From contig JAUIIL010000002.1 of assembly GCA_030431635.1 (NCBI GenBank), positions 310,001-374,000 of the forward strand: 64,000 nucleotides of DNA. Reading direction: 5' to 3'. A program made the translations under genes and the position numbers. Below the pieces are notes generated by a model. It saw nothing but the letters and a program-made list of their open reading frames with translations, ran no database searches and was not told the DNA's origin. Below are positions 5,008-31,911 of the stretch, in pieces. The stretch's first letter is position 1. Each line of letters starts with the position of its first letter. The stretch comes from Bacteriovoracia bacterium. GTDB taxonomy: Bacteria; Bdellovibrionota; Bacteriovoracia; Bacteriovoracales; Bacteriovoracaceae.

Positions 5008-6591
5008 CTAAAAAAACCTTTTCTTTATTTTTTTATAATCAATTTGAGAAAAAATAAGGCTTTTAAAAGAAAGGAAGTTTTTAAATGAGAGTTCTTCATT
5101 ATAAAAATGATTGAAAATAAACTCTCTTAATTCTTGATGTGATTGATTCCTCATAACCTCATATACCAGTTCTCCTATAAAACTACCAAGGATTTTTGCC
5201 ACTCGATAAAGGGAGAGAAAGTTCAAACGACTTAGAGAGGGAGATTCTTCTGCTTCAATAAAAACAAGAACCTTTTTATAGAGTGGCTGTTGTTCAGACA
5301 TATCTCTAAACTCTGCGAAGAGATCACATTTTCGATAAGGATTAATAAATTTCGATAAGAGGTAGCTATGACAATACACAAAGAAGTAATAGGCAAAAAA
5401 GCGTTTTTTATTAGAATAGACCTTTTTAAACTCAAATTTTTTCTTCTTAAGCATTAAGAGATGCAGATGAATTCCTGATAAGTAAATGAGTCTGTTGGCC
5501 GAGTAATTTGAGATAAAGTAGCGAGCTTGATTAAGAAAAGAAAATGACTCTTGGTTAACTAACAAGTCATTGTAGAAGTTTTTTATCTTTTTATCTTTTT
5601 GGAGTTTAATTTTTTTTGCAAAAAATTGAATATCCTTATGGTCATAAAGATTGAAATCTGAAATTTCGCTTTCTTCAAGATCAAGTTGAAGAGCTTGAAC
5701 TAATTGTTTATTAAGAAAAAGAAAGTTATCATCTATATCTGAACTAAAAACTTTTATTCCCGTATCCAAAATATATTCATGAATATCAAAGTCCGGATCA
5801 TCGACTAAATTTTCATACCAGTAGATCATACTCTCGTACTTAAGCCATGGGGGAGAATTAATAAGACAGAACTCATCTCTACTAAATTTATAAAAAACTT
5901 GGGAGGATTGAATGTTTTCAAAATAAATATGATCAATATTTTGATGGATAATAGTCGTTCGATATTTTTTAGGAGAAAGCAACGTGAGTTGTTTAGGGAT
6001 TTTATTAGGGATGATATGTAATTCTCCAAAAAGAAGAAGGATAGGTTTTTGAGGAGATTGTTTTTTTATTTCTAGAAGTTTTTGAGAACAAAAATGATCC
6101 CGTTCCTCTATATTTCCATCACTATTCAATGCAACAACTTCAATATTATGTTTTTTGATAAATTCGAAAAGTATCTTGTAATGATTCCAAGGAAACCTCC
6201 AAGAGTCATGATAATTAATACCTTCAAGAAATTCGAGGTCCGTCATTTGATTTTTTAAAAAGCTATCGAGTTGAACTTGATTTTTATAATGAACAAACTC
6301 AATTCCAAGGATAAAACCAGAACGATTTTGATTTAAATACCTCATGACTCTTAATACATTTCTTATGTTTTGATCAAAGGTATGAATGTCTCCAATCATA
6401 ATAAAATCAGAGTTAATGATAGAGCTAATAAACTCTCTTTCATGGCTTAATTCGTAGTTTCTTTGATAATAGTATTGTTGTTCTTTTCGATAATCAGAGA
6501 TCTGGGGAGAGAAATGCTCAAAACCTAATGCTTTTTCTTTGAGATTTTCAGTTAACTGCCAATGAAGTTTTTTTAGGTGAGAATTGAGCAT
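5008..6591 (-). CDS. ChaN-like domain protein, large cytosolic form
   Basis: 527 residues. Residues about 60-230 match the ChaN/haem-binding-uptake family: a first strand with IGDIHTF (usual GExH), HYKILFEFIKKHNIEVVALN, and LLLFGELHI. ChaN itself is a small iron-regulated lipoprotein that binds haem; here there is no signal peptide and a roughly 300-residue C-terminal extension of unknown function, so it is a cytosolic variant. A GAGG ribosome site precedes the ATG. It lies in the minus-strand run from the 953-residue methyltransferase-like gene to dtd. The fold seems right; the ligand is not known. Confidence 0.65.
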   Translation of the reverse strand: MLNSHLKKLHWQLTENLKEKALGFEHFSPQISDYRKEQQYYYQRNYELSHEREFISSIINSDFIMIGDIHTFDQNIRNVLRVMRYLNQNRSGFILGIEFVHYKNQVQLDSFLKNQMTDLEFLEGINYHDSWRFPWNHYKILFEFIKKHNIEVVALNSDGNIEERDHFCSQKLLEIKKQSPQKPILLLFGELHIIPNKIPKQLTLLSPKKYRTTIIHQNIDHIYFENIQSSQVFYKFSRDEFCLINSPPWLKYESMIYWYENLVDDPDFDIHEYILDTGIKVFSSDIDDNFLFLNKQLVQALQLDLEESEISDFNLYDHKDIQFFAKKIKLQKDKKIKNFYNDLLVNQESFSFLNQARYFISNYSANRLIYLSGIHLHLLMLKKKKFEFKKVYSNKKRFFAYYFFVYCHSYLLSKFINPYRKCDLFAEFRDMSEQQPLYKKVLVFIEAEESPSLSRLNFLSLYRVAKILGSFIGELVYEVMRNQSHQELREFIFNHFYNEELSFKNFLSFKSLIFSQIDYKKIKKRFF

Positions 6592-24158: not shown

Positions 24159-24911
24159 ATGAAATCATTCATTATGCTATTTCTTCTTGTTGTTCATGCC
24201 TATTCTTCGATAGAGAGCGAATTATTTGAGAAAAACTGGGAGAACCCTCTTATCGAATCAAGGTATTGCGGAAGAAACTCAATGAATTTTATTAAATGGC
24301 TTCATGAGGCAGGTGTTGAGTTAGAGAAAACGCAAATTTGGCAAGTTACAAATCAAGGTTTTAGTTACTTCGGATTGGTTAAATATTATCAAAATCGCTG
24401 GTCAGGCTTTATCCCTTCAAATATTGACCCCAATTATTTAACGAATACTTCTGGAGGGTGGCATTATCATGCTTTTGTTGTTCATCAAGGAAATGTTTAC
24501 GATTTTAGCTATAAAGAAAAACCAACAATTATTCCTTTAAAAGAATACCTTCATGATATGTTTACTGTTCGTTATGATCTGGGGAAAGAGAATTGGTTAA
24601 AAAGAAAGTATTCGCTTGAACTTGTGAAGAAATATCAAATTATAGCGGTAAATGGTCTGGATGTGATTAAAGCGATAAAGAGTGACCAAAAGCTATCTCC
24701 CTATGAGATGAAGCTAGGGGTTGTCGCTGATTATATGGGGTTAGAAAATAGGCAGTTAAATTTCAATATGAGCACTTCAATAAGACCAACCTGGGGAACT
24801 CAGCTTAATAAGCTTGTTAAAAAAATTCCGATGGGGAAGTTGAAGTTTTCTAGGCTCAACAGTTGCGATTCCCTTTTTGATAAACCAAATGAAATGATTA
24901 TTCCCGAATAA
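24159..24911 (+). CDS. Secreted papain/transglutaminase-like hydrolase candidate
   Basis: 250 residues with a signal peptide (MKSFIMLFLLVVHAYS). A Cys-His-Asp order typical of papain-like folds is visible: RYCGRNSMNFIKWL (Cys about 30 on, in a helix), WHYHAFVVHQGNVYDFSY with the His and a following Asp. The spacing resembles N-terminal glutamine amidase (WDYHV...D) and related C39/NlpC-type enzymes, but I cannot assign it to one. If active it would hydrolyse or modify proteins or peptides outside the cytosol. A leaderless promoter is suggested. Function is inferred. Confidence 0.5.
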   Translation: MKSFIMLFLLVVHAYSSIESELFEKNWENPLIESRYCGRNSMNFIKWLHEAGVELEKTQIWQVTNQGFSYFGLVKYYQNRWSGFIPSNIDPNYLTNTSGGWHYHAFVVHQGNVYDFSYKEKPTIIPLKEYLHDMFTVRYDLGKENWLKRKYSLELVKKYQIIAVNGLDVIKAIKSDQKLSPYEMKLGVVADYMGLENRQLNFNMSTSIRPTWGTQLNKLVKKIPMGKLKFSRLNSCDSLFDKPNEMIIPE

Positions 24912-25004
24912 CTTCAAGAGGCTCTCTTTGATTTACCGTAGACATCTTAGGAATATGGCCGGTAGATTTAGTAAAGAGAAAAAAAAGAGGGTAGTATTAA
25001 AAGA

Positions 25005-28000
25005 TTGTTATCTTGCATTATTTTTATCTTCAGTCTGGCATATGCTGATACTGATTGCGATAAGAGTAAAACTTTAGAATCATTTAAAAGCAGTAAGCAA
25101 ATTATTTTAAATCAGGTAAAACAGCTTAGCTTAGTTTCAAGTGGTGTTGTTAACAGAGGAGTGAGTCTTAACAATATCTTTGGTCACAATTTTAAGCTTG
25201 AAGAAAGTGACTCTTACATTCAAAAGCTTCAAAAGCTTAATGAAAGAGAAGATGGAATCGCACCTGAAAATAGAACTTTGTCTTATTGTTTAAAAAAATT
25301 AAAATTAAAGTCTTATCAGAATGAATTAATCAAGATTTCAAAAGAATTTAATAATTTAAAAATCCAACTTTTTAATAAAAATAAGAATTTGAACGATTTG
25401 TTCAAAAAAAGCCTAGAAGTTCAAGCTGACCTTCCTGAGTTTCAAAAAGAGTTACAAAAAGAAAGCATAGAGTCTCAAAAAATTAAAAAAGAGCTAGAGC
25501 AAGACTTACTTAAGTCTGAAGGGCAAAGTTTAAAAGAGAAAGACTTTGTTAAAAAAGAAATTATTGCGTACAAAAATGCGCTGATTAGATATAATATTGA
25601 GCTGATAGAAAAAAAGCTAGATAATATTAAAGCACTTGAAGAGAAAATTAATTACCTTTCTTTAAAGTCTCAAAACCTTTCACTGCTCTCTAAAGAGCCT
25701 TCAGAACAAAAACAACTAGAGGAAAGTTTTAGAAAAATAGACAATATATGGCTAGAAGTAACTCAAGAGGATTTATATAAAATTTTCAATAAAAAATTCA
25801 GCTTCTCTCTTCCCGTAGTACCAGAACTTCCCCGCTTAAAAGAAAGCTCTCGTGAGCTAGAAAGTGAACTTTTAGAACTAGCAAAGAAAAGAGAGGAAGC
25901 TATTTTTCAAAGGCAACAAGCTTTAAAGGAACTTACTAACAAGGAAAAGCAAGAACTCAAGTTTCTTAATGAACTTATTCTTAATATTAACTCTTTAAGA
26001 AGTGAGTATTTCAGTAAGCTAGAAACGCACTATATAATTAGGAAAATTCTCGCCTCTGAGTATTTAAAACTTTTAAAAAATGAGATTGTATCATCTCCTT
26101 ATCGGGTTATTAGTTTCTTCTATTCTAAGTTTTTATATGTCAATGAGAAAATATCAAGAGGTCGAGAAGGTATCTCTGAACTAGTTTTTGATTTTTTTAA
26201 ATTGCTTTTTATTATTTTTCTTTTCTTCTCTTTGAAGTTAAGTTTAGACAAAATCTATACTTATCTTGATGATAAGCAAAATAAAGCAATTAATTACTAT
26301 CGAAATGTTAAATCACTTAAAGTTTTTTCTTCTTTTTGGGTAAGAATAAAACCTAACTTCACTGATATTATCTGGATTTTACTTATTCAGTTCTTAATAA
26401 GTAATTCTTACTTTCGTGACATCACTATTTTATTAAAAGTTGCTAATGTCATTTTTATCTCCAGGGTTATCAAACATTTAGTTATTTTGTTTTTAGGTTC
26501 TGTTTCTAAAATAGATATAAAAAGTTTTGCTAGTTTTAAGAAAAAGGCAAAACTAACTTCAGAGCATTTTTCAAATATATACCTTGCTTACTTTTTAACG
26601 ATGATTTTCATTGAAGCTACAGTCGGTAAAGTTTATATCTACTCTATATTTAATATTATTGTTGTTCTTTTTTCAATTTATCGTCTAATGAATGCAGCTT
26701 CAGAGTGGGAGGACGAATTTAAGACATATCTTGAAAGAAAATTCTCCGGAGTTATTACAGAAAAGATTGATTTTTTACTTAAGTATATGCCTGTCAAAGT
26801 AAGGGCCATACTGATATTTGTGTCAATTGTTTTACTTTCCGCCTTGGATATTTTTATTAAAGCGACAGAGAATTTTGAAATTTCAAAAAAGATTTCTGCA
26901 AACTTGTTTAAAAAACAAATTGAGAATATTGAAGCTGAGGATGGAGCTGATAAGAAAATCCCTCAAGAATATAAAAATGAATTTAAGTATAACTCTATTA
27001 CAAACTTTAATGAATACGTCGTTTCAGACAAAAAGCTTGAGGCAAGTATCTTACTTGAAATTCATGAGTGGTTTGAAGAAAAGTCAGATGAGCACTCAGT
27101 TGTTATCTATGGAGACAAAGGTATTGGAAAAACAACTCTTCTAAAGCATATTATTTCTAACCTTGAAATAGAAGAGACATCAAAAGTTCAGTGTATTTAC
27201 TCTAAAATGCCATCTAAAACGACAAATAAAGAGAGTTTAGAAGCTTATCTCCTGTCACTTTTTGGCCAAGTATGCCAGAGAGATAAATTTGATATTTATG
27301 AAATAGATTCAAAGTTAGATAAAAAAACAGTTGTCGTTATTGACGAAGCCCAAAATATGTTTCTTTCTCAGACAGGAGGATTTGAAGCCTATTATAGTTT
27401 GATTAATTTAATAAACTTAAATACTGAAAAAATATTTTGGGCCATGTCTTTTAATAAATATAGTTGGCTGTATTTGGACAGGGCTTTCGGAAGAAATCAA
27501 TTCTTCAGAAATGTGTATGAACTAAGTGGATGGAGTGATACTAAAATTAAAGAGCTCATTCTCAAAAGGCATCAAAAATCTCCCTATAAACTGTCTTATG
27601 ATTTACTTATAAATGCGACTCGTTCACAAGATGAGATGGATCGGTACGCATCGATTGAGTCAAAGTTTTTTAAACTACTTTGGGAGTTATCAAGAGGTAA
27701 CCCTCGGGCTGCACTTTCTCTGTGGGTTTCTGCTCTTTCTCGTAAAAATCGAGGAAGTTTTAATGTTAATATTCCTAAAGAGTTAGAATTAAGTGGAATT
27801 GAAAAACTACCCGATGACTTAATGTTTGTGATCGCTCACGTTTTGAAGCATGAAAATTTACTTTCAGTAGAAATCGAGAGTACTACAAACCTTCCAAAGG
27901 GAATCGTCAGGAATGCAATTAAAGTTTGTCTAGAAAGAAAGTTTCTCTATCGAGATGAAAGAGGACGCTATATGATAGATATATCGTCTCAGTATGGCCT

Positions 28001-28043
28001 CATAAGATATCTAAGGTTAAAGAATTTTATTTATGGAAGTTAA
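25005..28043 (+). CDS. Membrane ATPase: periplasmic coiled coil, ~6 TM, AAA-type NTPase
   Basis: 1012 residues; TTG start without a clear ribosome site. Signal peptide to about residue 15, then about 370 residues of mostly charged coiled coil, as in the periplasmic part of MscK/MscM. About six TM helices follow (near 398-418, 452-470, 477-500, 524-543, 545-562, 598-620). The cytoplasmic C-terminus is an ATPase of the AAA/ORC1-like P-loop type: Walker A GDKGIGKTT (about 703-711), Walker B VVVIDEAQNM (about 775-785), then a winged-helix-like tail (EIESTTNLPKGIVRNAIKVC). An MscS channel gene overlaps its end by 11 nt. I know of no described protein with this full order. Confidence 0.6.
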   Translation: MLSCIIFIFSLAYADTDCDKSKTLESFKSSKQIILNQVKQLSLVSSGVVNRGVSLNNIFGHNFKLEESDSYIQKLQKLNEREDGIAPENRTLSYCLKKLKLKSYQNELIKISKEFNNLKIQLFNKNKNLNDLFKKSLEVQADLPEFQKELQKESIESQKIKKELEQDLLKSEGQSLKEKDFVKKEIIAYKNALIRYNIELIEKKLDNIKALEEKINYLSLKSQNLSLLSKEPSEQKQLEESFRKIDNIWLEVTQEDLYKIFNKKFSFSLPVVPELPRLKESSRELESELLELAKKREEAIFQRQQALKELTNKEKQELKFLNELILNINSLRSEYFSKLETHYIIRKILASEYLKLLKNEIVSSPYRVISFFYSKFLYVNEKISRGREGISELVFDFFKLLFIIFLFFSLKLSLDKIYTYLDDKQNKAINYYRNVKSLKVFSSFWVRIKPNFTDIIWILLIQFLISNSYFRDITILLKVANVIFISRVIKHLVILFLGSVSKIDIKSFASFKKKAKLTSEHFSNIYLAYFLTMIFIEATVGKVYIYSIFNIIVVLFSIYRLMNAASEWEDEFKTYLERKFSGVITEKIDFLLKYMPVKVRAILIFVSIVLLSALDIFIKATENFEISKKISANLFKKQIENIEAEDGADKKIPQEYKNEFKYNSITNFNEYVVSDKKLEASILLEIHEWFEEKSDEHSVVIYGDKGIGKTTLLKHIISNLEIEETSKVQCIYSKMPSKTTNKESLEAYLLSLFGQVCQRDKFDIYEIDSKLDKKTVVVIDEAQNMFLSQTGGFEAYYSLINLINLNTEKIFWAMSFNKYSWLYLDRAFGRNQFFRNVYELSGWSDTKIKELILKRHQKSPYKLSYDLLINATRSQDEMDRYASIESKFFKLLWELSRGNPRAALSLWVSALSRKNRGSFNVNIPKELELSGIEKLPDDLMFVIAHVLKHENLLSVEIESTTNLPKGIVRNAIKVCLERKFLYRDERGRYMIDISSQYGLIRYLRLKNFIYGS

Positions 28044-28833
28044 TAAAGATTTATCACTCTTAATTTTTGATTTTTTTAAGATAGATAAAATTTTTCTTTT
28101 TATCGTTTTAGTAGCAGTTATTATTTTAATTGTTAAAATTGTAAATATTTGGTCTGAAAAAGTTCAGAGTAGATTTTCAGGAAAAAGGTTAATTGTTCTT
28201 CAACTAACAACAATATTCTCTTTTACTGCTTATCTTTTTGGAATTTTAGGTATTTTTTATTTTGTTTTTAGACCTTCGAGAGAATTACTTGTTGCTTTTG
28301 GAGGCTCAGCTGCTGTTGCTTTTGGTTTCGCATTAAAAGATCTAGTAGGTTCAGTAATTGCAGGTTTTATTTTATTATTTGATAGACCTTTTCAAGTAGG
28401 AGATCGAGTTACTTTTGGAGATTCTTACGGAGAGATAAAGAGCATCGGTTTAAGATCTGTTCGCTTAAATACGTTAGATGATAACTTAGTAACGATTCCC
28501 AACTCTAAATTTTTAACAGATGTTGTTGCGAGCGGAAACAGCGGAGCCTTGGATATGATGGTTGTGACGACCTTTTATGTTTCTCTGTTTGAAAACTTAG
28601 AGAAGATTAAAAAGATTCTTCTTGAAATTGTCATTACAAGCCGGTTTGTTTTTTTAGAAAAACCAGTTTCCATTACTTTTGAAGAAGTTGCGGTTTCAAA
28701 CAATTTTGTGATTAAGGTCAATGTTAAGGCCTACGTTCTTGATGTTAAGTACGAAAAAGCCTTTATGAGTGATATTATTATGCGAGGGGAAAAAATTCTT
28801 CTCGAGCAAAATATTAAGCGCCCAATTCTATAA
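28033..28833 (+). CDS. MscS-family mechanosensitive channel
   Basis: 266 residues. Two N-terminal TM helices (residues about 18-37 and 52-78) and the pore helix AFGGSAAVAFGFALKDLVGS (about 91-110), followed by the conserved FDRPFQVGD and the beta domain (GEIKSIGLRSVRLNTLDD, then VTIPNSKF). These match MscS TM3 and the beta domain. Its first 11 bases overlap the ATPase gene, so the two are translated together and probably form one membrane complex. Typical MscS opens under membrane tension. High confidence for the family. Confidence 0.9.
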   Translation: MEVNKDLSLLIFDFFKIDKIFLFIVLVAVIILIVKIVNIWSEKVQSRFSGKRLIVLQLTTIFSFTAYLFGILGIFYFVFRPSRELLVAFGGSAAVAFGFALKDLVGSVIAGFILLFDRPFQVGDRVTFGDSYGEIKSIGLRSVRLNTLDDNLVTIPNSKFLTDVVASGNSGALDMMVVTTFYVSLFENLEKIKKILLEIVITSRFVFLEKPVSITFEEVAVSNNFVIKVNVKAYVLDVKYEKAFMSDIIMRGEKILLEQNIKRPIL

Positions 28834-28934: not shown

Positions 28935-30092
28935 ATGTTCTCGATAGAAGACTTCATGCCACATGGACACTGCTACTTATGGAATAAGTGGATACTACTT
29001 GCCCAAGTAGGAGGAGACTCTCTTATTGCTCTTAGCTATTTTTCGATTCCTGTTGCTTTAGGATATTACGTGATTAAGAGAGAGGTAATGACTCATAGTA
29101 AACTTGTTTGGATGTTTATTTCTTTCATCCTCCTCTGTGGAATGACACATGCTGTTTCAATCGTGACTGTTTGGTATCCTTTGTATCAATTAGAGAGTTT
29201 ATTCAAGATACTAACAGCATTAGTTTCTGTATTTGTTGCTGTTTCTCTTTGGCCTTTAATTCCAAGAGCACTGAGACTCCCAACCCAAAAAGAAATGAGA
29301 GAAAAAAACCGAGAGCTTCAGAAAGAAAAAGAACAACTTAGAGAAGCTAATATTCAGCTTAGAAGATACCAAGAAAAAGTCATAGAATCATCTAAGCTAG
29401 CTTCTTTAGGAGAGATGGCCGGAGGTATTGCTCATGAAATTAATAACCCTTTAAGTATTATTAATTCTTCAACAAAAGTTTTAGAAGAGCTTCTTAAAAC
29501 AGAAGGAATTGAAAAACAGGAAATACTCGATCGAATCAATAATATTAATGTTATCGTCAGGAGAATTTCTAAAATTATTAATGGGATGAAAAAAGTCTCT
29601 CGTACAGGAAAAAATGAACGAATGAAAAAATATTCGTGTTTAAAAGTGCTAGAAGATGCGATTAGTTTATCTCAAGAAAAATTTAAATGTGATGGTATTG
29701 ATCTTATTGTTGATTCAAGTGCCATTAGTGATGAGACTCTCGTTGAATGTCGTCCAGTTCAACTATCTCAAGTTTTTATTAACCTTCTGAATAATGCTTT
29801 TGATGTTATAAAATCTCAGACAAAAGATAAGTGGATAAAAATCATTCTTTCAGAAATACCTGATAGGAAAATTCAATTTGATTTTGTTGATAGTGGAGAA
29901 GGGATTAATCCCTATCTTGCGAAGAAAATATTTGAGCCTTTTTTTACAACGAAAGAAGTAGGAGAGGGAACTGGCCTTGGGCTTAGTATTTCATATTCTA
30001 TAGTTGAACAAATGAAAGGAGAGCTTTTTTACAATGAGAGCTATAAGAATACGTGCTTTTCTCTTATTCTAAATAAGGCCAAAGGGACATAA
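28935..30092 (+). CDS. Histidine kinase with ethylene-receptor-like copper-binding sensor
   Basis: 385 residues. The N-terminal 115 residues form three TM helices of the plant ETR1/cyanobacterial type: Asp28, Tyr35, Ile38, Pro39 (SYFSIP) and Cys68/His72 (CGMTH), each exactly three residues beyond ETR1 Asp25, Tyr32, Ile35, Pro36, Cys65, His69, the last two being copper ligands in ETR1. A coiled coil follows, then the H-box AGGIAHEINNPL (His about 169), N-box and G-boxes (DSGEGI, GEGTGLGLS), so it is an intact kinase. No SD precedes the ATG. Heads an operon with an HD-GYP protein and a response regulator. Confidence 0.85.
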   Translation: MFSIEDFMPHGHCYLWNKWILLAQVGGDSLIALSYFSIPVALGYYVIKREVMTHSKLVWMFISFILLCGMTHAVSIVTVWYPLYQLESLFKILTALVSVFVAVSLWPLIPRALRLPTQKEMREKNRELQKEKEQLREANIQLRRYQEKVIESSKLASLGEMAGGIAHEINNPLSIINSSTKVLEELLKTEGIEKQEILDRINNINVIVRRISKIINGMKKVSRTGKNERMKKYSCLKVLEDAISLSQEKFKCDGIDLIVDSSAISDETLVECRPVQLSQVFINLLNNAFDVIKSQTKDKWIKIILSEIPDRKIQFDFVDSGEGINPYLAKKIFEPFFTTKEVGEGTGLGLSISYSIVEQMKGELFYNESYKNTCFSLILNKAKGT

Positions 30093-30094
30093 AT

Positions 30095-31456
30095 TTGAGT
30101 CAAGATAGTAAGGTTCTCGTTTACCACCCAAATGTTTCCTCCGCCAAAGAGTTAAGAATTCAAATATCACAAGAAATTAATTGTAAAGTAGATATTTGTG
30201 TAAACAAACTAGAAGCCTATAAGCTTTTATCCCAACATAATTATGAGAATGTTGTTTTAAACTTTGAAACTCCTAATGAAAACTCTCTTGAATTACTGAA
30301 ATTTATACGCCTTAACTCTAACGACAGAAAAGTTATTTTTCTATGTAAAAGTAGTCGAGATTTAAGTGAAAGTTTTTCAGAAGATAAACTTGCTGAATTA
30401 GGTGTAAGCAGTGTTTTTTATAAAACGGAAGGTTTTAATCGTTTGCTTGATATTATTAAAGCACAAAAAAATAAATTTAGTATTGAAGAACCTATTTTAA
30501 AAAATGAAAAGAGAGAACCGAGTTTTACGAGAGTTAGTCGGAAGTTTTTATCAAGAAAAAACCCTTCTTTTTTTGACTTGTATGTGAAAATTAATAATCA
30601 TTACATCAAAATATTAAAGAGGGGAGATATTTTTGAAGATGAACAATTTGAAAAATATAGTGAAATTGAAGATTTTTTTATTTCAAGAGATGATGAAATA
30701 AACTACGTAAAACATTTAAATAATGTTATTGAAAAACTAAACCAAGAAAAAAAGATGTCTCCTAAATTAAGAAAAAGTGCAACTTGTTTGATAAGGGAGG
30801 CCGCTGAATCTCTTTTTAACTCTGCATTTTGCTCAAGATTAGAGCCGAGACTTTTAGATGAGTGTAGAACATTATGTTATAATGTTAAAAACTATATTGA
30901 AGAATCAAGTTCATTAAAAAATTTGTTTAATACGCATTATAGTGCTGAAAACACAGTAAAAGAGCATAGCTTTTTAACAATGATATACTCCATTGCAATA
31001 TCTATTAAAACTCCTTGGATTAATGAGAGAGTTTTAAGAAATATATCCTTAGCTTCCTTATTTCATGATTTAGGTTTAAAAAGGCTTGATTTTGAGGTTA
31101 ATCAGTACAACTTTAATAAGCTTTCAATGGAGCAGCTGATTGAATATAAAAAACATCCAGAATACTCAGTAGAGATGTTAAATGAAGCTGAAGATCAACC
31201 AGAAGCTTTGAAGCAAATTATTTTCCAGCATCATGAGTATATGAATGGAGAAGGATTTCCGTTAGGACTTTATGAAAGTCAAATTTATCCGCCTGCCAGA
31301 GTTTTATCTATGGCCAATTTTTTTGCTGATAAAATCATTTTAAATCAAGAGTCTCCAGAAGTTGTTTTAAGAGGTCTAATCAAGAATAGAATTAACCTCG
31401 AAAAGTTTGATATCAACGTTGTGAAAGCTTTGGTTGATTGCTTTAAAGCAAGGTGA
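30095..31456 (+). CDS. Pseudo-receiver/HD-GYP protein
   Basis: 453 residues, TTG start 2 nt after the kinase stop. N-terminal receiver-like domain (about 1-125) in which the phospho-acceptor Asp is replaced (VVLNFETPNENS), so it cannot be phosphorylated normally. C-terminal HD-GYP domain: HDLGL (HD), KKHPEYSVEML, and HHEYMNGEGFP (HHExxxGxGYP with F for Y). HD-GYP proteins cleave c-di-GMP with two or three bound metal ions; the main ligand residues look present. Between kinase and response regulator in one operon. A c-di-GMP role is inferred. Confidence 0.75.
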   Translation: MSQDSKVLVYHPNVSSAKELRIQISQEINCKVDICVNKLEAYKLLSQHNYENVVLNFETPNENSLELLKFIRLNSNDRKVIFLCKSSRDLSESFSEDKLAELGVSSVFYKTEGFNRLLDIIKAQKNKFSIEEPILKNEKREPSFTRVSRKFLSRKNPSFFDLYVKINNHYIKILKRGDIFEDEQFEKYSEIEDFFISRDDEINYVKHLNNVIEKLNQEKKMSPKLRKSATCLIREAAESLFNSAFCSRLEPRLLDECRTLCYNVKNYIEESSSLKNLFNTHYSAENTVKEHSFLTMIYSIAISIKTPWINERVLRNISLASLFHDLGLKRLDFEVNQYNFNKLSMEQLIEYKKHPEYSVEMLNEAEDQPEALKQIIFQHHEYMNGEGFPLGLYESQIYPPARVLSMANFFADKIILNQESPEVVLRGLIKNRINLEKFDINVVKALVDCFKAR

Positions 31457-31461
31457 ATGAA

Positions 31462-31911
31462 ATGGAAAAGAAAAATATTCTTCTAATTGATGACGAAGAG
31501 TTAATTTTAAAAGATATTGCTTTTTTGATTAAGAAGCATGTTAAGGAAGTCCATACTGCCAATAATGGGTTTGAGGCACTTGAGGTTTTAAAGAAAAAGG
31601 ATATTGATATTATAGTCACTGATATAAAAATGCCTAAGCTTGATGGCATTGAAATGATGAAGAGCATTCGAGAGAGTGGTTATGAAACACCTGTCATTGT
31701 TTATACTTCCTTTGGTAACGATCAAATAATAAACTCAATATTAAAATATTCTATTAATGACTTTATTAATAAGCCTGATATCGACTCCCTGGTCGAAGCA
31801 ATACTCTTAATACAAGAAACTGAAAATGCAGAGGTTATTAGGAAAGAAAAGTATGAGCAATTGTTGAAATCTTTAATGGAAAGTATTGATAAGAGTCATT
31901 CGAAAAAATAA
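31462..31911 (+). CDS. Single-domain response regulator
   Basis: 149 residues from the ATG at 31462, preceded by AAGGTGA 5 nt away; an in-frame GTG at 31453 lies inside that site. CheY-like receiver: Asp10/Asp11 acidic pair, phospho-acceptor Asp54 (TDIKMPKLDG), Thr/Ser switch (VYTS) and Lys/Pro near NKPD. A 30-residue helical tail follows; no output domain. It is the natural partner of the ethylene-like kinase two genes upstream. A terminator follows at once. Confidence 0.85.
   Translation: MEKKNILLIDDEELILKDIAFLIKKHVKEVHTANNGFEALEVLKKKDIDIIVTDIKMPKLDGIEMMKSIRESGYETPVIVYTSFGNDQIINSILKYSINDFINKPDIDSLVEAILLIQETENAEVIRKEKYEQLLKSLMESIDKSHSKK

Follow-up and report, generated by a model that had tools for sequence, protein, structure and literature searches.

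A membrane-anchored AAA+ protein is the fixed partner of one clade of MscS-family channels and may regulate their opening

Within the window, the 64,000-nucleotide stretch of DNA that we analyzed, a large gene for a membrane ATPase (gene A) runs into the gene for a small channel protein (gene M; Table 1). An earlier note on this DNA had described a large reading frame whose end overlaps an intact MscS gene by 11 bp; the ORF list and the sequence show both frames intact and agree with it in extent and overlap. The TTG start chosen by the ORF caller, at 25005, leaves A with a signal peptide that lacks a basic end. An in-frame ATT codon at 24996, with GAGGG shortly upstream, gives the N-terminus MKRLLSCIIFIFSLAYA-D, and homologues of A start with MK and hydrophobic residues, resembling this longer form. 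We infer that ATT 24996 may be the real start of A.

Table 1. Features of the A-M locus, in window coordinates
Feature	Position	Strand	Basis and remarks
Gene A, long form	24996..28043	+	possible ATT start 24996 (1015 aa); ORF caller's TTG 25005 (1012 aa)
A signal peptide MKRLLSCIIFIFSLAYA, predicted, cleavage before D	24996..25046	+	sequence; signal-like N-termini of long homologues
A periplasmic helical domain, ~375 residues	25047..26180	+	AlphaFold helices 23-387; alignments
A membrane domain, six hydrophobic helices	26181..26867	+	odd number (probably five) must span
A membrane-proximal linker, conserved KKISAxxFKKxLE motif	26874..26960	+	alignment consensus; model helix 628-642
A AAA+ ATPase domain, ORC/Cdc6-TnsC-STAND kind	26961..27710	+	Pfam AAA_22; structural matches to archaeal ORC, Cdc6, TnsC (Z 14-16)
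A Walker A GDKGIGKTT, residues 706-714 of the 1015-aa form	27111..27137	+	three Gly 41/41, Lys 40/41, Thr/Ser 41/41
A Walker B VVVIDEAQNM	27330..27359	+	Asp 41/41; next position Glu 24, Asp 13, Asn 4
A GNPR motif	27696..27707	+	GNP 41/41, Arg 35/41
A winged-helix domain, invariant His (KHENL)	27804..28025	+	MarR_2 matches in 3/41 members; model secondary structure; ORC match to residue 1010
A/M overlap ATGGAAGTTAA	28033..28043	+	11 bp, joins A to M
Gene M, MscS-family channel	28033..28833	+	266 aa; lacks the C-terminal beta-barrel strand of E. coli MscS
M pore helix TM3	28279..28380	+	Lys102 invariant, Asp103 nearly invariant; alignments, model

The AlphaFold model of A (pLDDT 85) is helical up to residue 387 and continues through six long hydrophobic helices into an alpha/beta ATPase and a winged helix. 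Its signal-like N-terminus and the model helices up to residue 387 are in line with the signal peptide and long helical periplasmic part that had been proposed for this protein. The periplasmic domain has one Cys close to the N-terminus of the mature protein and a second about 75 residues on, both common to most long homologues, and the domain is reduced or absent in some members of the family. The proposal of six transmembrane helices held in part: six hydrophobic helices are present in the model, but all six cannot span the membrane as drawn, because a periplasmic N-terminal domain and a cytosolic ATPase can be joined only by an odd number of crossings. Three of the helices, TM2-TM4, are borderline, with a family mean predicted dG of 1.1-1.5, and the charge patterns of TM1-5 read in/out/in/out/in; about five of the helices probably span the membrane. 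Pfam placed no family on the periplasmic or membrane half of A in any of 41 members.

The C-terminal part of A is a P-loop ATPase, as had been recognized earlier, with an AAA_22 match at residues 695-804 (Pfam, E=3.5e-10), the Walker A motif GDKGIGKTT and the Walker B motif VVVIDEAQNM, the three features that mark an AAA+ protein of the AAA_22 type. AAA_22 was found in 40 of the 41 members. Beyond the ATPase, toward the C-terminus, lies a winged helix that the earlier note had missed. The model has an ORC-like fold that includes this winged helix. It matches A. pernix ORC2 at Z 16.4 (rmsd 10.8 over 321 residues) and, at the same Z, one chain of Drosophila ORC-Cdc6 (rmsd 3.5 over 250 residues). 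ATP-dependent opening, as suggested in the earlier note, remains conjectural: most members keep the P-loop, but the catalytic Glu is replaced by Asp or Asn in 17/41, the Walker motifs are broken in two short forms, and the P-loop is lost in the soluble partners described below. Scores of the window protein for STAND families lie below the respective cut-offs (NACHT 22.8 vs 26.7, nSTAND3 21.7 vs 27.2 and NB-ARC 18.6 vs 23.5 bits), its NCBIfam matches are far below the cut-offs of named equivalogs, and Pfam detected no effector or repeat sensor domain fused to the NTPase.

M is an intact MscS channel gene, as first described: it matches PF00924 with 74.4 bits (E=7.6e-21) against a curated cut-off of 20.2, and its model (pLDDT 78) is of the MscS type, with three N-terminal helices followed by beta and then alpha/beta domains. 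Both model and alignment place a pore-lining TM3 ahead of these two domains, in the order typical of the family. The nearest solved structures are the MscK C-terminus, YnaI and MscS, and for the pore the MscK C-terminus was the best match in NCBIfam and in the PDB. The C-terminal barrel strand, a feature of E. coli MscS that is not needed for membership of the MscS family, is absent, with M ending at KRPIL, 8 residues past MscS position 263 vs 23 for MscS itself. In TM2 we observed the M-specific residues Q57, T60, Y67 and G70; these residues and the absent strand would be compatible with a partner. The source genome encodes two other MscS channels.

The pairing of A with M is fixed. In the class of the source organism A lies directly upstream of all 43 cognate M genes, overlapping them by 11 bp in 30 of the 43 pairs and by 8 bp in 8, and an independent scan recovered the pair at 49/49 loci, including those of Gammaproteobacteria, Betaproteobacteria and Spirochaetes; the expectation that an MscS gene always follows homologues of A was thus borne out in both surveys. 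Plasmid records extend the pair to Alphaproteobacteria. Among 369 Bdellovibrionota genomes, 68 contain A and 64 contain its own M subclade, and in the four genomes with A only, the gene is cut by contig ends. As A without M was seen nowhere else, the claim of a fixed two-gene system stands. No member of M's own clade lacked A in the genomes scanned, the sole near-exceptions being two sister-clade MscS genes (G271 and G276) without an adjacent ATPase, and A and M are separate genes in every homologue checked.

The two proteins also show correlated evolution. Identity among MscS sequences is bimodal, with cognate M proteins 42-77% identical and the next MscS at ~27%. In a tree whose other MscS sequences came mostly from the same or related genomes, the partnered MscS proteins and a small sister group formed one clade (support 99/98), separate from E. 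coli MscS, YnaI, MscK, MscM and the other MscS. Distances within A and within M were correlated (r=0.91, 0/2000 permutations), in part through shared species history, and five pairs of strongly supported splits disagree between the A tree and the M tree. Upstream of sister-group MscS genes we found soluble, P-loop-less homologues of A that have no membrane part and are related to its ATPase domain (hhalign probability 95.5%, E 1.4e-8). As the partnership outlasts loss of both the membrane domain and ATP binding, it points to a docking subunit.

On balance we lean toward a model in which M is a tension- or osmotically gated pore, with A as a regulatory subunit dedicated to it. A would be made from the same message as M and anchored in the inner membrane through helices of its own, with its helical sensor extending into the periplasm. 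The AAA+/winged-helix module would make physical contact with M by docking on its cytoplasmic cage, which is without the usual C-terminal barrel, and docked A would set the ease with which M opens or inactivates. Binding of ATP or ADP may serve as a regulatory switch tied to an envelope signal and not as a power stroke, and some lineages may have dropped nucleotide binding and kept docking alone. More tentatively, A-M could represent a widespread two-protein MscS class in which an AAA+ subunit, anchored in the membrane, reads the energy state of the cell together with an envelope signal and sets channel opening accordingly. Such a pair would amount to a mechanosensitive channel under nucleotide control, and derived lineages would have lost nucleotide binding and retained the docking subunit.

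The fixed pairing and the gene overlap would fit co-translational assembly equally well, and the ATPase of A falls into a wider AAA_22 group with ExeA. Some membrane ATPases, ExeA among them, have a role in assembly, and A could likewise insert, oligomerize or place M, for example at envelope-stress sites, without gating it. However, the existence of soluble P-loop-less partners suggests a stable subunit over an ATP-driven assembly factor, and to our knowledge other MscS channels, the two in the source genome among them, do not require an assembly helper; we regard such a role as unlikely. A main role of A as a transcriptional regulator at the membrane, with its winged helix on DNA and M merely co-transcribed, appears improbable: A does have a winged-helix domain, and its closest folds, ORC, Cdc6 and TnsC, bind DNA, but M is the only constant neighbor of A in all loci checked, the soluble version stays next to MscS, and the M clade has residue conservation of its own.

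In a further explanation, which elaborates on the defense role suggested in the earlier note, A would detect a signal from a phage or predator and the opening of M would then kill or depolarize the cell, making the pair an abortive-infection or other defense effector. The patchy occurrence (68/369 genomes) and the STAND-like matches of A (NB-ARC, NACHT, nSTAND) agree with this idea, and membrane depolarization is a known mode of defense, exemplified by Cam1 (PMC10808066). However, PADLOC matched the window protein at the level of the P-loop only (mad8, residues 697-730) and gave no match for M, no known defense family occurred among the clustered neighbors of A-M, and 50,697 phage records yielded no match. 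The one recurrent informative neighborhood consists of rimK/aspartoacylase genes, found beside A-M in about nine loci from about five genera of one family only; rimK adjoins other MscS genes elsewhere, and these neighbors are compatible with an osmotic setting. A defense function was not supported by these results, and we consider it very improbable.

The usual view of MscS channels is of valves that need no partner and open through membrane tension alone. We found no paper on the A-M pair among open-licence PMC papers, a conflict-systems survey covering STAND NTPases does not mention MscS, and a partner subunit of this channel seems undescribed so far. If A regulates M, osmotic release in some bacteria would be adjusted to the nucleotide state of the cytosol and to a signal from the envelope, by a pair whose conservation extends over Bdellovibrionota, three proteobacterial classes and at least one spirochaete. 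The pair offers a clean system for asking whether the cytoplasmic cage of MscS docks regulators, and natural versions of the partner (full, short, P-loop-broken and soluble) are available for comparison.

Among known systems, MscK and MscM (KefA/YjeP) resemble A-M in combining an MscS pore with additional membrane helices and a large helical part in the periplasm, and A had been read as their sensor part split from the pore. We detected no significant homology of A to MscK or MscM that would support this reading: hhalign runs with the whole protein and separately with its periplasmic, membrane and ATPase parts, against a template of two E. coli sequences, MscK and MscM, gave probabilities of at most 18%, Pfam assigned no family to the periplasmic or membrane half, and a PDB profile search with the membrane part returned nothing pointing to such an origin. 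MscK and MscM are single chains without an ATPase, whereas at this locus and in the homologues checked there are two ORFs, the extra parts reside on a separate AAA+ protein, and M belongs to a different clade. M shares its three N-terminal helices, beta domain and alpha/beta domain with MscS and YnaI, and the Lys-Asp of its pore helix with YnaI, but differs from both in its missing barrel strand, its obligate partner gene and its separate clade. With the AAA_22 ATPases (ExeA, TniB, TnsC, ORC/Cdc6 and the XrtA-associated ATPase) A has in common the P-loop, DE(A)Q Walker B, GNPR motif and winged helix, with structural Z of 14-16 to ORC and TnsC; unlike them, it has a fused periplasmic and membrane domain and a channel partner, and it scores far under their equivalog cut-offs. 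The STAND NTPases resemble A in its weak NB-ARC, NACHT and nSTAND matches, its D[DEN] Walker B and its GNP motif, whereas A carries no repeat sensor and no fused effector, and its best structural matches are to AAA+ ORC proteins, not to NB-ARC.

Both genes of the pair claimed in the earlier note are real and intact. Gene A, which encodes a protein with periplasmic helices, a membrane domain and an AAA+ ATPase, and gene M, which encodes an MscS-family channel, are open reading frames sharing an overlap of ATGGAAGTTAA, with Pfam matches to AAA_22 (E 3.5e-10) and the MscS beta-domain (E 7.6e-21), respectively. Initiation at the TTG codon deprives the signal peptide of A of its basic end, and initiation at ATT 24996, shortly 3' of GAGGG, restores this end as MKRLLSCIIFIFSLAYA-D. 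From the window sequence and the N-termini of homologues, we infer that ATT 24996 is likely the better start. The gene just upstream of A encodes a secreted-looking 250-aa protein with no Pfam match.

Positions of the A-M pair, its neighbors and related loci
Feature	Location	Strand	Detail
Gene A	window, TTG 25005 to 28043	+	1012 codons
Gene M	window, ATG 28033 to 28833	+	266 codons
Secreted-looking protein	window 24159-24911
Histidine kinase, ethylene-receptor-like N-terminal membrane domain	window 28935-30092		PF25487 ETR1_N, E 2.4e-31
Receiver/HD-domain protein	window 30095-31456
Single receiver	window 31453-31911
Soluble P-loop-less partner	L207 6129-7406		upstream of sister-group MscS
Soluble P-loop-less partner	L208 6795-7964		upstream of sister-group MscS
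Soluble P-loop-less partner	L220 about 5200-6350	-	upstream of sister-group MscS
rimK/aspartoacylase-like/Zn_protease cluster	L067 4844-7184		beside A-M; also L073, L078, L083, others
Caulobacter plasmid genes	L219 2879-7301		ATPase, cognate MscS, second unrelated MscS
Split A with M (G618)	L215 3234-7282

The AlphaFold model of A (41 sequences, pLDDT 85) contains, from the N-terminus, long helices (residues 23-387), six long hydrophobic helices to about residue 624 and a membrane-proximal helix, followed by an alpha/beta ATPase and a winged helix. Residues 653-1010 fall with archaeal ORC, Cdc6 and TnsC (Foldseek and VIA-align, Z 14-16); the periplasmic and membrane halves matched no Pfam family in any member. 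Across 41 members, the Walker A glycines are invariant and its lysine is kept in 40, while the Walker B aspartate and a GNP motif are present in all 41, the position after the aspartate being Glu (24), Asp (13) or Asn (4). Part of the family consists of shortened forms of about 750-780 aa missing most of the periplasmic domain, a few members (about 620-640 aa) lack it wholly, and the Walker motifs are broken in two short membrane forms (loci L102 and L103). Six spans, as in the six transmembrane helices previously described from sequence, clash with a periplasmic N-terminal domain and a cytosolic ATPase. TM2-TM4 are marginal by predicted insertion energy (approximate values from a re-implemented published dG scale), and the sixth helix of the Novosphingobium protein is weak and arginine-bearing. 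Five membrane spans appear likeliest.

Gene A is present in 42 of 129 Bacteriovoracia genomes. Relatives of M in this class form two groups, 43 genes at 42-77% identity and a remainder mostly under about 32%, and A lies directly upstream of all 43 genes in the former. Of these pairs, 30 overlap by 11 bp and 8 overlap by 8 bp, and in nearly every junction a TATG within the last codons of A holds the M start codon. A second survey, using one A motif against 84,980 species genomes, recovered 49 loci, all with M directly downstream, although the Bacteriovoracia loci of the two surveys are often identical contigs and the counts are therefore not independent. The carriers were Bdellovibrionota, Gammaproteobacteria, Gallionellaceae and one Spirochaete. 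In the phylum Bdellovibrionota, 68 of 369 genomes yielded A and 64 the cognate M; in the remaining four (G166, G203, G222 and G267), A reaches the contig end or stops within 180 bases of it. Whether an MscS gene always follows A, a check proposed with the original observation, is answered positively in these surveys, with gaps in the phylum only at contig ends.

Elsewhere the pair is rare: the order that includes the Gallionella carrier has it in 2 of 250 genomes and the phylum of the Spirochaete in 1 of 247, both counts including the centre genome. It was also found on Novosphingobium and Caulobacter plasmids. On the latter, the A-M pair stands in a row with another, unrelated MscS gene, and a mating-pair gene lies nearby. 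In genome G618, A is split into three pieces in different frames beside an intact M, reflecting either decay or assembly errors. Distances for A and M correlate (r=0.91, 0/2000 permutations), despite which five pairs of strongly supported splits conflict between the two proteins.

In a maximum-likelihood tree, all partnered M proteins fall in one clade (support 99/98), separate from E. coli MscS, YnaI, MscK, MscM and other MscS proteins. This clade also includes a sister group of five MscS genes, three of which (in two Gammaproteobacteria-order genomes and Halomonas) have upstream of them a gene whose soluble product, of about 390-425 aa, shows no predicted membrane helix; no such gene adjoins those of G271 and G276. 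Two of the soluble-partner genes are intact, with no Pfam family, and the Halomonas gene is frameshifted in the examined record. By hhalign (probability 95.5%, E 1.4e-8), these partners are homologues of the ATPase/winged-helix part of A, but they lack the P-loop lysine and Walker B acids. Given these proteins and the broken Walker motifs of L102 and L103, the MscS partnership has survived the loss of the membrane domain as well as of nucleotide binding, which argues for docking of a regulatory subunit and against universal ATP-driven opening.

The best-supported reading makes M the channel pore and casts A as the subunit that regulates it. The AAA+/winged-helix module would lie on the cytosolic side and contact M by docking at its cage, the periplasmic helices would act as a sensor, and nucleotide state would probably modulate the channel opening threshold. 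The pairing could instead reflect a role for A as an assembly factor, which we consider unlikely, or as a transcription regulator, which is improbable even with a winged helix in A; a defence effector, an option raised in the earlier note, seems slightly less probable still.

M is the sole constant neighbor of A. Only one recurrent neighborhood is informative: in about nine loci from five genera, the pair adjoins rimK (RimK ATP-grasp), an aspartoacylase-like gene and a RimB-like Zn_protease gene, and rimK also adjoins other, unrelated MscS-type genes in G002, G003, G049 and G074. These neighborhoods possibly link peptide osmolytes to MscS channels, and an osmolyte or ion-balance role for A-M would fit this circumstantial evidence. 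The window genome has two MscS-family genes besides M and no rimK match; directly after M is an apparent signalling operon, made up of the histidine kinase, the receiver/HD-domain protein and the single receiver. For some Bdellovibrionota groups, mscS has been reported as enriched among marine genomes, in an analysis that did not separate the A-paired clade (PMC8067016).

The model of M contains the usual MscS elements, with hydrophobic residues kept at the pore constriction. Near-invariant TM2 residues of its subclade (Q57, T60, F64, Y67 and G70) are not shared by other MscS genes of the compared loci or the window genome. M shares a pore-helix Lys-Asp with YnaI, but it lacks the C-terminal strand that forms a barrel in E. 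coli MscS. Searches of the open-licence literature uncovered no account of an MscS channel paired with an ATPase. The parts of A and M each belong to known families, and their combination is new among MscS systems; if nucleotide gating is shown, A-M could prove to be a new kind of system.
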